A stretch of 64,000 bases of DNA, from assembly GCF_900156425.1 (NCBI RefSeq), contig NZ_FTNO01000005.1, positions 1 through 64,000 of the forward strand, written 5' to 3'. The position numbers were made by a program, and so were the translations under genes. Below, in pieces: positions 50,021 to 59,867 of the stretch; position 1 is the first letter of the stretch; every line of letters starts with the position of its first letter. This stretch comes from Haladaptatus litoreus. GTDB lineage: Archaea; Halobacteriota; Halobacteria; Halobacteriales; Haladaptataceae. The notes below the pieces were generated by a model that was not told the origin of the DNA, searched no databases, and saw only the letters and a program-made list of their open reading frames with translations.

Positions 50021-50311
50021 TCGGGTGAGGGTACTGTATAGACAGTCAACGGAGCGATTGAACCGGTCGAGCAAAAGAGCGATTTCAGCGGTTCGAAGGT
50101 TCTCGGAGAACCAGATTTCGAGAGTCGCGGTCTTCTACAATTCACGGTTCTAAAACAACTACAGTTATAGAGCATCTGTATCTTTGGGAGCATCGATTTC
50201 TGCAACCAGACAAGAGTCAATCTTATACAGTATCGGATATAGGTCGAATGCAGGATTGCGGCAGGTCACAAAGCTGTGTAGTAAATGTTGTATGTTAACA
50301 ACCAACAATAA

Positions 50312-50340
50312 CACCCACCCCATGATTTCCGCTGTTTTGG
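50312..50340 (+). repeat. Origin recognition box-like element, copy 5
   Basis: Core at 50326-50336 with upstream CACCCACCCCATGA and downstream TTGG. Confidence 0.7.
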
Positions 50341-50569
50341 GAAGAAGGTGGGTAGGGGGTGAGAGCGGAGGTGGGAATGGGGGAACTGTTGAACACGGAG
50401 GAAAATTGTCGATATTTGTTGCGAAACCCGATTTGATAGATGCAACCCACGGTTATTTGCACGACAATGAACCAATAGTCGGTGATAACGGTGATAAATT
50501 CATATTCTCCCATTTATATTGTTGGAGACGAGAAAAAGGTGAATCTCGAAAACTATAGTCTGATCTCTA

Positions 50570-50660
50570 GAGTATATATTTATTGAAGCAATTTTAATTA
50601 GTTCTGAATTTACCCACTACGGATATGGTTATATATCTATTTGTATAAACCTGTCGTTCT
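50570..50660. other. AT-rich segment, candidate DNA unwinding element
   Basis: A run of about 90 bases rich in A and T (including TATATATTTATTGAAGC and TTATATATCTATTTG) between element copy 5 and the inverted copy. Position and composition fit an unwinding site. Confidence 0.5.
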
Positions 50661-50702
50661 AGTAAATCCCTTTTCACCACCCCACCCACTCCCACCCAAC
50701 TA

Positions 50703-50725
50703 GACACAGGAAATAGTGGGGTGGG
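50703..50725 (-). repeat. Origin recognition box-like element, inverted copy
   Basis: On the minus strand it reads CCCACCCCACTATTTCC followed by TGTGTC, so the left part is exact and the core diverges. It lies on the far side of the AT-rich segment from copies 1-5 and in opposite orientation. Confidence 0.55.
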
Positions 50726-50839
50726 TGTGTCTTTATAAACAAAACTGTTCCTTCACGACAACTCCATATCTCGAATTCTCCGTCTTCTACCGCGAAAGCG
50801 TCCCTACTCTCACTTCCCGACAAAGACATCCACCCGGCA

Positions 50840-51260: not shown

Positions 51261-52502
51261 ATGTCATCGTTTAGTTTCGACCGGGATAACTCTCTCTACA
51301 AAAACCGGGACGCATTACTGGAGGAGTACACGCCCAACAATCTTGTCGGGCGGGACGACGAACTCGAAGAGTATCACGCCGCCCTGCAACCGATTATCAA
51401 CGGAGAAGCGCCGTCGAATATCTTTCTCTACGGAAAAAGCGGGGTCGGGAAAACCGCTGCGACGCGATTCCTTCTGAACCAACTCCAGGAGGACGCCGCC
51501 AGATACGACGACATTTCGCTTTCTGTCATCGAAATCAACTGCGACGGACTCAATTCGAGCTATCAAGTTGCGGTTCGGCTCGTGAATACGCTCCGCGACC
51601 CCGCCGACCAAATCAGCAACACGGGCTATCCGCAGGCACAAGTGTACAGCTTTCTCTGGGATGAACTCGACAAACTCGGTGGAACCATCATCATCGTGTT
51701 AGACGAGGTTGACCACATCAACGACAACTCCATCCTCTATCAGATTCCACGCGCCCGGAGTAACGGCTACCTCGAACACGCCAAAATCGGCCTCATCGGC
51801 ATCAGCAACGACCTCTCGTTCCGCGACTCTCTTTCGGCGAAAGTTCGCTCTTCGCTCTGTGAAAAGGAAGTTTCGTTTCCGCCGTACAACGCAAGCGAAC
51901 TACAGAAAGTGCTTCACCAGCGCGACCAAGTCGCGTTCCACGACAACGCCCTCGCGGACGACGTTATTCCACTTTGTGCGGCCTACGGTGCACAAGACGC
52001 CGGTGACGCTCGGCAGGCACTCGACTTGCTTCTCGAAGCAGGCGACCTCGCTCGAAAAGACGCGGCGGAACAGGTCGTGGATAAACACGTTCAGGAGGCA
52101 CGGCGGAAACTCGAACGCGACCGAATCATGGAGGGTGTCGCCGACCTCACCCAGCACGCGCGACTCATTCTGTACGCACTCACGTCCATCGAAGCCGAGG
52201 GAAACACCCCTGCTCGCTCGCGGGATATTCGTCCGCGATACGAACAACTGTGTAGTCACATCGGAACCGAGGCATTGACGAGCAGACGAATGCGTGACCA
52301 CCTTGCAGACCTCGCAATGCTCGGCGTCATCTCTTCGACCGAAAAAAACGAAGGAATGTCCGGTGGCAAATACCGCGAGCACGCGCTGAAACAAGACCTC
52401 CAACTCGTGGTTAGTGCATTGGAAGAAACCATCGAACTCGCCGGAGTGCACGAGAGTATTCGTCCGTACTATCAGTCACTTCTCGACGACCGAGAAACCT
52501 GA
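51261..52502 (+). CDS. orc1: Orc1/Cdc6-type replication initiator
   Basis: A 413-residue AAA+ protein that binds origin boxes and loads the MCM helicase. The N terminus has NLVGRDDELEEY, Walker A YGKSGVGKTAATR, Walker B IIIVLDEVDHIND, sensor-1 IGLIGISNDLSFRDSL with the initiator insertion, and a C-terminal winged helix (residues about 300-405). All parts are complete. Repeated elements with a common core lie on both sides of the gene, the normal arrangement for an initiator and its own origin. Haloarchaea carry many paralogs, on chromosomes and megaplasmids; which replicon this one serves cannot be told from the window. Confidence 0.93.
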   Translation: MSSFSFDRDNSLYKNRDALLEEYTPNNLVGRDDELEEYHAALQPIINGEAPSNIFLYGKSGVGKTAATRFLLNQLQEDAARYDDISLSVIEINCDGLNSSYQVAVRLVNTLRDPADQISNTGYPQAQVYSFLWDELDKLGGTIIIVLDEVDHINDNSILYQIPRARSNGYLEHAKIGLIGISNDLSFRDSLSAKVRSSLCEKEVSFPPYNASELQKVLHQRDQVAFHDNALADDVIPLCAAYGAQDAGDARQALDLLLEAGDLARKDAAEQVVDKHVQEARRKLERDRIMEGVADLTQHARLILYALTSIEAEGNTPARSRDIRPRYEQLCSHIGTEALTSRRMRDHLADLAMLGVISSTEKNEGMSGGKYREHALKQDLQLVVSALEETIELAGVHESIRPYYQSLLDDRET

Positions 52503-57971: not shown

Positions 57972-58295
57972 CTGGTATCCGCCTCAACGAAGCGGAGGAT
58001 AAAGAGTGTTTCAGGCGACTCGTTCGACGAGTTTCGTAAGCGTCGATTGTCCTGCTGACAATTGCTTTGTCGCTCATCTGAACGGGTTAGAAATATGTCG
58101 AGACCAATATTATTGCACGTTATCCACAACACTCGTTTACAAAACCGTCACAGATCGACTTTCTTCGCAATATTCTCCCAGTTTGATGCTCATATTCATC
58201 TCTGAATATCTGAATATCTACCCGTATTTATATCTAACAATCTATCTGGAAAACTCTTTAGAAATATATCTAGATAACCAACGGAAAGAAACGAC
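57972..58295. other. AT-rich intergenic region after the par operon
   Basis: About 320 bases between the methyltransferase start and the end of the partition operon, far richer in A and T than the coding regions. It holds imperfect repeats of the type GAATATCTGAATATCTA and TATATCTAGATAACCAACGG (58262-58281), the latter similar to CTATCCAGATAACCACTG on the other side of parA (59643-59660). No gene is credible. Confidence 0.5.
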
Positions 58296-58703
58296 TTACC
58301 GACGCCCGTATCCCCACTCTTCCATCACTCTTTGAACGTCGTCCATGTTCTCCAGTCCGGCACGCATGAGGGCTTCTCGAACGTCCAGCGCCATCACTTT
58401 GTCACCATCGAATCGTTGACTCAGCTCCCGTTCGAGGTCGCTAATTTCTCCTGCGGTTGTGTCCTGAACGTACACAGGCATCGCCTCGCGGTCGGCCTTC
58501 ACGGTTCGCCGCGCGAAGATGAACGGCAGTGTGTCGGCTCCAGCATTGCCGTTGGTTTCGGCGTTTCCACCCGCATTCGAGGATTCCGATTTCGAATCTC
58601 CCGTACCCGACTCGGCTACCGTCTTCGATTCCGTCTCGGAATACTCCCCATAATCGTCGCCGTAGTCGTCGTCGGTCGCGCCGTAACGGTCGTCTTTGGT
58701 CAT
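58296..58703 (-). CDS. Small ParA-partner protein, disordered N terminus
   Basis: A 135-residue protein. The first 55 residues are acidic, Ser/Gly/Asn-rich and predicted disordered; residues about 58-135 are folded (TLPFIFARRTVKADREAMPV, ISDLERELSQRFDGDKVMAL, DVREALMRAGLENMDDVQRV). Its start overlaps the parA stop by four bases, so it is co-translated with ParA. In haloarchaeal replicons a small unrelated protein often follows parA and presumably replaces ParB by binding DNA or ParA; that role is inferred. No ParB domain is present. Confidence 0.7.
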   Translation of the reverse strand: MTKDDRYGATDDDYGDDYGEYSETESKTVAESGTGDSKSESSNAGGNAETNGNAGADTLPFIFARRTVKADREAMPVYVQDTTAGEISDLERELSQRFDGDKVMALDVREALMRAGLENMDDVQRVMEEWGYGRR

Positions 58704-59533
58704 GCTTCTACCTCCACATCCACGGTTCCCTGTTCGACGATTCGTGCCAACTGTTCGAAGTTCGCAAGTAGATCTTTTTCGTACTCTCGCAGGTCACGGG
58801 TTTCCTCGCTTTCCGCGAACTCGAACAGATTCATCTGCCCTTTCCATGCTTCTTTCAACACGTCCCGTTTTCGCACGCCGAAGGGAGTCACCGGCTTTCC
58901 ACCTGCTTCCAACTCGTCCCGCGTGTCGCGGTAGATGTTAGAATCGCCGACTTCGTTCGGAACGACGGCGAGAATGCCGAGTTTAAAACTATCGTCGAAC
59001 TTCTGAAACCCACGTTCCATGCTGTCGAGGGTGTCTTCGAGTCCTTCGATGGAGATGCTCCCTTTCCGCGTAAGCTCGATTGGAATGAGAACGTTCCGCG
59101 CTGCGACCAGCGCGTTGTCAACGAGAACGTTCAACGTCGCGGGCGGGTCGATGATAAAGTAGTCGTAGTCGCCCGCGACGGTTTTCAGCGCGGAACGGAG
59201 TTGGAATTCCCGAAGCGAGGTGTTTCTGGCGGCCATTTCGCTTTCGATATTTGCCAGTCCCTCGTGCGACGGAACGAGGTCGAAATCTGCAGTTTCGACG
59301 ATGAGCGAACGAATGTCCTTTTCATCGTCCAGCAGAACGTGACCGAGATGGTCGCGGTCGCCCGTTTTCAGTTCTTGGTAGCCGACGTGGTCGGTCAAAC
59401 TTCCCAGTTGGGGGTCTAAATCAACCACGAGAACCCGTTCGCCTCGCCGTCCCAACGCGGCGGCCACGTTGGTCGCCATGGTCGTCTTACCGACCCCGCC
59501 GGACTCGCTCCACAGTGTGATGGCTCGTTTCAT
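58700..59533 (-). CDS. parA: ParA-family partition ATPase
   Basis: A 277-residue ATPase of the ParA/Soj/MinD class. The deviant Walker A is SESGGVGKTTMATN near residue 8, Walker B-like switches are VVDLDPQLGSLT and YFIIDPPATLN. Such proteins segregate plasmids or chromosomes. The start ATG 59533 matches the family; a frame ten codons longer is less likely. AATTTATGAG about 32 bases upstream gives a TATA box. With its partner it forms a two-gene operon placed 6 kb from orc1. Confidence 0.88.
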   Translation of the reverse strand: MKRAITLWSESGGVGKTTMATNVAAALGRRGERVLVVDLDPQLGSLTDHVGYQELKTGDRDHLGHVLLDDEKDIRSLIVETADFDLVPSHEGLANIESEMAARNTSLREFQLRSALKTVAGDYDYFIIDPPATLNVLVDNALVAARNVLIPIELTRKGSISIEGLEDTLDSMERGFQKFDDSFKLGILAVVPNEVGDSNIYRDTRDELEAGGKPVTPFGVRKRDVLKEAWKGQMNLFEFAESEETRDLREYEKDLLANFEQLARIVEQGTVDVEVEA

Positions 59534-59867
59534 ACAGTCGGTCGTTATACGCTTACCACTCATAAATTCTCGTCAGACAAATGAGTCAAACTATACAAAT
59601 AGGTGTCCAGATAGCTATCTTTGTGGATGTCTTTCTAGATATCTATCCAGATAACCACTGTACGGAAGACGATTTATCTCCTATCTACGGACTCCCTCCG
59701 AGAATGGATTTTTAAAAATCTGTATGTCTTCCTGGAGAGCTATTCAGAAATCTCTTCGTCTATCCTCGTCGCCCCTGGCTGATTTCGGCTTCCTGCAATC
59801 GTCATCTGCTCATACATCTATACAGCCATCTTGCCAGCTATCCTGCCAGAAATCTCTCGGGAACTCC
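59534..59867. other. AT-rich region upstream of parA with degenerate repeats
   Basis: About 330 bases with repeated short patterns: ATAGCTATC, AGATATCTATCCAGATAACC (59637-59656), and later GAGCTATTCAGAAATCTCT against CAGCTATCCTGCCAGAAATC. Partition loci usually have a centromere-like site next to parA; this is a candidate. No gene is credible here. Confidence 0.5.

Follow-up and report, generated by a model that had tools for sequence, protein, structure and literature searches.

The window analyzed here is the whole 64,000-nucleotide stretch of Haladaptatus litoreus DNA (bases 1-64000 of the 394,116-bp contig C7, the 394-kb replicon). On its minus strand lie a parA-like ATPase gene (58700..59533, 277 aa) and, downstream in the same operon, a small partner gene (58296..58703, 135 aa) whose start codon overlaps the parA stop codon (ATGA), confirming the four-base overlap by which the original prediction had coupled the two genes. 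A longer parA frame opens at 59563, but translation probably begins at a conserved ATGAAACG at 59533, yielding the 277 aa, since this start is common to relatives and is found behind a conserved TTTATG box. A conserved GTCTGACGAG..TTTATG element (59561..59580, minus strand), seen across clade A and clade B loci between the array described below and parA, is likely the BRE/TATA promoter of a near-leaderless parA transcript. The encoded protein has a P-loop ATPase domain (Pfam AAA_31, 3.3e-36; CbiA, 1.8e-17), matched Soj proteins among solved structures (9e-24), and carries its ATPase motif at the N terminus, without an N-terminal HTH. Its Walker A motif, SESGGVGKTT, does not contain the signature lysine of the ParA/MinD signature KGGxGK[T/S], and all 84 family ParAs with a readable motif conform to SE[A/S]GGxGK[T/S], with alanine or serine at the position of that lysine. 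With this lysine missing, the ATPase may not follow the canonical ParA cycle, and a modified one is predicted.

The partner is built of an N-terminal peptide, an acidic, disordered low-complexity linker, and a C-terminal domain (residues about 57-135) with three predicted helices. Both the acidic N terminus and the lack of a ParB domain had been anticipated, and both held: the protein matched nothing in Pfam, NCBIfam, or PDB, neither ParB/Srx CTPase nor HTH domains were detected in it with Pfam and NCBIfam, and none of 48 relatives matched ParB. Scanning 47 relatives together with the window partner gave no credible Pfam or PHROG match, and homology to SegB or AspA found no support, as no PDB chain of either was matched by sequence or fold. 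AlphaFold2 modeled the full-length partner at pLDDT 62 and the domain as three confident helices (pLDDT 91-94), and Foldseek searches with both models returned no PDB match. For RHH there was no Pfam match, and hhalign gave a probability of 2.8 versus 1.8 for the reversed control. Given the lack of a Foldseek match and of an RHH signal, the argument that the partner may bind DNA rests on its linkage to, and co-variation with, the repeat arrays.

Homologs of the partner occur in 165 of 293 sampled Halobacteriales genomes; none was detectable in the other 128, and therefore other systems must exist. All 28 positives in a Halobacteriota-wide sample of 295 genomes were Halobacteriales. Among PLSDB plasmids, the partner was found in 71 with the window query and in 102 with a Halobacterium-type query, the ten best-represented genera in each list being exclusively haloarchaeal, and it was absent from phage and viral-contig collections. 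Laboratory organisms are among the carriers, namely Halobacterium salinarum (pNRC200/PHS2) and Haloferax, and in annotated plasmid examples a "hypothetical protein" comes after a "ParA family protein." At every locus where both genes are readable the partner sits directly behind ParA. Its start falls inside the overlap with the parA stop codon in 37 loci of a first set and overlaps that codon in 49 of the 50 loci of a second, and a third, more divergent set has an ATGA or TAATG junction in 36 of 38 loci (the remaining two could not be framed). The fiftieth locus of the second set, L088 of Haloferax massiliensis, is a truncated parA-partner remnant. Common to the relatives are a K-x-G-[AST]..DPF-like peptide at the N terminus, an acidic linker that varies, and a conserved C-terminal domain whose last residues are EEWGYG. 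The open-access papers searched gave no account of the partner family, and the partner appears to represent a new family belonging to a so far undescribed haloarchaeal two-gene system of ATPase and small partner.

Both flanks of the pair carry phased arrays of a 12-bp near-palindromic unit (CTATCTGGATAG), all assigned to the minus strand. The main upstream array (59591..59654; E = 1.5e-9) is composed of the phased 12-bp units CTATTTGTATAG, CTATCTGGACAC, ACATCCACAAAG, ATATCTAGAAAG, and TTATCTGGATAG, with one 16-bp step. Further upstream are a second block of 12-bp units (59716..59763; E = 0.004, phased score 19.6) and a third, more degenerate one (59806..59853; phased score 15.2, or 13.5 with the matrix from other species), while the downstream array (58206..58277; E = 6e-8) comprises about six contiguous units 19 bp past the partner stop codon. 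The flanks had been described as AT-rich and as sharing a motif; they are AT-rich, and TCTAGATAACC (58270-58280) and TCCAGATAACC (59647-59657) are present, but these motifs are edge units of the longer 12-bp-period arrays. The period stands out from dinucleotide shuffles (z = 3.1 upstream and 3.6 downstream), and a motif matrix trained solely on other species gave phased scores of 35.0 at 58230, 29.3 at 59607, 19.6 at 59716, and 13.5 at 59818, against a best background of 8.2 in 394 kb.

Comparable arrays accompany the relatives. Autocorrelation of the 170 bp on either side of the operon, before parA and after the partner, peaked at 12 bp in relatives of the window locus; the widespread plasmid clade gave a 13-bp peak before parA. 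Of 48 loci from named genomes, 38 had 13 as their best upstream period, 9 had 12, and one had 8, with a mean z of 5.7 compared to 3.0 at random places in the same loci, where the controls spread over codon multiples; 13 was also the best among lags 10-14 in 38 of 38 further divergent loci. Chance AT-rich repeats were rejected by the shuffle, locus-control, and replicon-scan statistics, as was codon periodicity as the origin of the 12-bp signal, lags 9 and 15 not being raised upstream of parA. The units themselves are a dyad-symmetric 12-bp cTATCTGGATAG in clade A, a 13-bp tgTGTTCAyTAgt in clade C, CAGTATTACTG in the VHQLF class, CTTAGATTAG in the Haloarcula class, TTAGTATAACTA in the IQYFLR class, GTATAGCTA in the RPIFLR class, and TTACAGATAT in the LEVHVRD class.

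Clustering of 89 loci by the C-terminal region of the partner gave nine clusters with at least two members, each with its own motif, and motif similarity was 0.15-0.37 within clusters versus 0.05-0.06 between them. Three separate contrasts paired ParAs that were 68-72% identical with partners that were 39-44% identical and motif similarity at baseline; conversely, motifs were kept within partner clusters though ParA identity may fall to 57-66%. The global partial correlation of motif similarity, at 0.14 with partner identity versus 0.27 with ParA identity, does not single out the partner, and the co-variation of array and partner is therefore supportive rather than decisive.

Scanned over the full 394-kb replicon, the other-species matrix identified six places above background (scores 35.3 to 13.5; next best 8.2, with a shuffled maximum of 9.5 for an earlier matrix), of which four are the blocks of the par locus and two are arrays, at 89,111 and 167,337. 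These two distal arrays, D1 (C7:89087-89158, between convergent gene ends) and D2 (C7:167337-167395, upstream of a glutathionyl-hydroquinone-reductase-like gene), lie outside the window, 30 and 108 kb from the pair, and are made of the same 12-bp unit. Among nine genomes, our own and those of sister Haladaptatus, an array lies near the same genes as D1 in seven and upstream of the same gene as D2 in eight. A 48-bp sequence-only profile (R1), from whose training set the 167-kb site had been left out, placed all 11 of its matches at E <= 1 in the own 4.67-Mb genome on the replicon of the pair. Strong R1 matches in eight sister genomes likewise fell on the contig with the pair, and in two drafts also on other contigs, which are probably pieces of the same replicon. 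Two clade C plasmids carry a single array, upstream of parA, with no distal array above the null.

Contigs C7, C5, and C9 of the own genome each encode one pair, three in all, and no two of these share a motif class, as would fit a single specificity per replicon. The third of these (C9:164399-167181) adjoins an orc1 gene, and its array class is TTACAGATAT, unlike those of C5 and C7. At C11:1841-1877 there is an array of the C5 class (CAGTAATACTG), which either belongs to the C5 replicon as a distal array or stands alone on a different molecule. On the Haladaptatus pallidirubidus chromosome NZ_CP085301.1 (L039/L040) two copies of the pair with its distal arrays are spaced by exactly 551,849 bp, which points either to a tandem-duplicated megaplasmid cointegrate or to an artefact of assembly.

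On the computed evidence (the operon, the family, the arrays and their replicon specificity, the conservation of the distal arrays, and the link between array class and partner class), we place a probability of about 84% on the locus being the ParA-type segregation (par) module of a 394-kb secondary Haladaptatus replicon, with the partner as a centromere-binding adaptor on array centromeres. In the proposed model, the C-terminal domain of the partner would read the 12-bp near-palindromic units, several copies lining up on and coating each phased array, and the conserved N-terminal peptide, on its disordered acidic tether, would contact the ParA ATPase and may stimulate it. ParA in its ATP form on bulk DNA could then pull or space the arrayed replicon copies, an ATP-driven movement that would promote inheritance by daughter cells, and the array beside the promoter may also serve autoregulation. 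Alternatively, regulation could be all that the arrays provide, the partner repressing the parA operon and a few other genes as an operator-bound repressor and ParA having another role. The main array does abut the putative parA promoter, and D2 does precede a gene; nonetheless, another array follows the operon, D1 falls between convergent gene ends, the sites are limited to the replicon carrying the pair, and the Haloprofundus arrays discussed below are intergenic and sit at conserved positions as far off as about 450 kb, so that we consider an operator-only function unlikely.

Phased iterons are typical of plasmid origins, and the AT-rich arrays lie 6-9 kb from orc1, as they might if they were replication-origin iterons and the pair controlled initiation or copy number. 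A separate candidate for the origin is, however, present. The orc1/cdc6 initiator gene (51261..52502, plus strand), the only Orc1/Cdc6 gene found on the 394-kb contig, is preceded by two inverted 25-bp ORB-like boxes, at 50311..50335 on the plus strand (ACACCCACCCCATGATTTCCGCTGT) and at 50704..50728 on the minus strand (ACACAGGAAATAGTGGGGTGGGTGT as read on the plus strand), which end in a G-rich run and flank 368 bp upstream of orc1. Haloarchaeal origins are marked by ORBs with a G-string (PMC3528665), and this ORB pair, apparently distinct from the par arrays, is a candidate origin; the GC skew of C7 reaches its maximum near 46 kb. Inverted ORBs with a G-string were not found in the par-array region, the ORB pair being at 50311-50728, and the candidate origin in turn carries no arrays of the par type. 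Since the inverted ORBs and orc1 form a separate candidate origin at 50.3-50.7 kb, the par arrays were rejected as ORB/origin repeats; they also have no G-string, are dispersed over several places per replicon, and have no linked Rep gene, leaving an iteron function in replication quite improbable. Least probable in our estimation is that ParA positions some other cargo, such as chemotaxis arrays, archaella, or membrane machinery, in the manner of haloarchaeal MinD homologs, with the repeats being incidental. ParA/MinD ATPases do position varied cargoes in haloarchaea (PMC11588486), but the pair is not fixed in genomes, is mostly plasmid-borne in replicon-specific classes, and is invariably accompanied by DNA arrays.

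A segregation module thus remains our preferred reading, and it agrees with the original suggestion of a poorly described archaeal partition pair in the maintenance region of a replicon: ParA coupling, replicon-specific arrays, one array class per replicon, and the presence of orc1 and a candidate origin on the same replicon all support it, orc1 lying 5.8 kb from the end of the partner (6 kb had been given) together with its inverted ORB-like boxes, and the homologs did not prove to lack links to replicon maintenance. If anything that suggestion seems to have been too modest, since the flank motif would belong to a centromere-like iteron array, the family extends to most haloarchaea, and dispersed arrays appear on a main chromosome as well.

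The chromosomal version is found in Haloprofundus. Four species carry a clade B pair on their largest contig, the main chromosome (3.0-3.2 Mb, or 1.9 Mb in one of the assemblies); a nearby gene resembles IMP dehydrogenase on a sequence reading, and a second replicon of the same genomes bears a pair of clade C. A profile trained solely on Haladaptatus arrays detected six places per Haloprofundus genome, all on the contig of the pair, in a constellation that spans about 580-650 kb and is conserved across the four genomes. Relative to the local array, the others lie at -451, -287, +10, +57, and +194 kb in G149; -456, -295, +8, +47, and +190 kb in G224; -438, -277, +9, +47, and +169 kb in G092; and -415, -257, +7, +46, and +165 kb in G084. 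These arrays are intergenic and not within acidic reading frames, and their flanking DNA aligns at 81-89% identity between species, except at the +169-kb site of G092, which gave no alignment. At several places the array falls in a gap between aligned flanks, indicating that the exact sequence is replaced over time but the 12-bp phasing is retained. Halogranum and Halegenticoccus pairs belong to the same clade. We hold it to be an even bet that in Haloprofundus, and perhaps in these related Haloferacaceae, the pair runs or organizes main-chromosome segregation through the six-array constellation over about 580-650 kb. If so, a euryarchaeal chromosome would have a multi-site centromere that is independent of ParB and is served by an ATPase that has lost the signature lysine, and this chromosomal system would have been exchanged with megaplasmids in the course of evolution.

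For the inheritance of chromosomes and megaplasmids in polyploid haloarchaea, this pair offers a concrete, testable answer in the form of a named gene pair, defined candidate binding sites, and replicon-specific classes that predict compatibility. The conserved Haloprofundus constellation makes a euryarchaeal chromosomal centromere directly testable, and the family provides an annotation handle for more than 100 plasmids whose partner reads "hypothetical protein."

Several known systems resemble this one in part. The haloviruses phiCh1 and phiH also encode a haloarchaeal ParA with a small acidic gene that comes after and overlaps it, but these pairs were rejected as relatives given their canonical KGG Walker A motif and the absence of convincing partner similarity; they also have no 13-bp array, and the weak hits of a maximum-sensitivity profile scan (12.7 and 7.2 bits with high bias) were taken as compositional. 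In phiCh1 (L206 2495-3656) and phiH (L207 2498-3668) the KGG ParA shares an 8-bp overlap with a different small gene whose strand-helix sequence looks RHH-like, possibly a separate, also undescribed partition pair. ParR-parC and TubR-tubC use phased short iterons of about 11-12 bp that are bound cooperatively, a similar arrangement of sites, but their motors are actin- and tubulin-like whereas the gene here encodes a ParA-like motor. SegAB of Sulfolobus and AspA-ParB-ParA of pNOB8 similarly join archaeal ParA-type ATPases to archaea-specific partners, AspA binding a 23-bp palindrome and acting through a ParB adaptor (PMC5120986); the window partner differs in matching no PDB chain by sequence, and the system in consisting of two genes and phased arrays.

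According to a 2025 survey, chromosomal ParABS is generally absent in archaea and ParB beside ParA essentially so (PMC12704722). The haloarchaeal system shares with bacterial chromosomal ParABS a dedicated ATPase, a partner, and several dispersed centromere sites on one chromosome, and its replicon-restricted arrays are, on sequence evidence, candidate cis-acting centromere sites on the same replicon. We do not file it as canonical ParABS because it has neither a ParB domain nor the signature lysine; moreover, there is no CTPase domain, and each site is a phased array rather than a single 16-bp palindrome. Type Ib systems, ParF-ParG of TP228 and delta-omega of pSM19035 (PMC9499535), combine a small ParA with a small centromere binder and a repeat-array centromere upstream of parA. 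Shared with them are a small ParA without an N-terminal HTH, a short downstream partner with a disordered N terminus, and a repeat array ahead of parA that would act as centromere and probably as operator too. The haloarchaeal pair departs from type Ib in having a partner with no detectable RHH fold or sequence relation, a ParA without the signature lysine, near-palindromic units of 12/13 bp, and, on clade A and B replicons, several dispersed arrays. In sum, we suggest that the system works like type Ib ParA partition with an iteron centromere.
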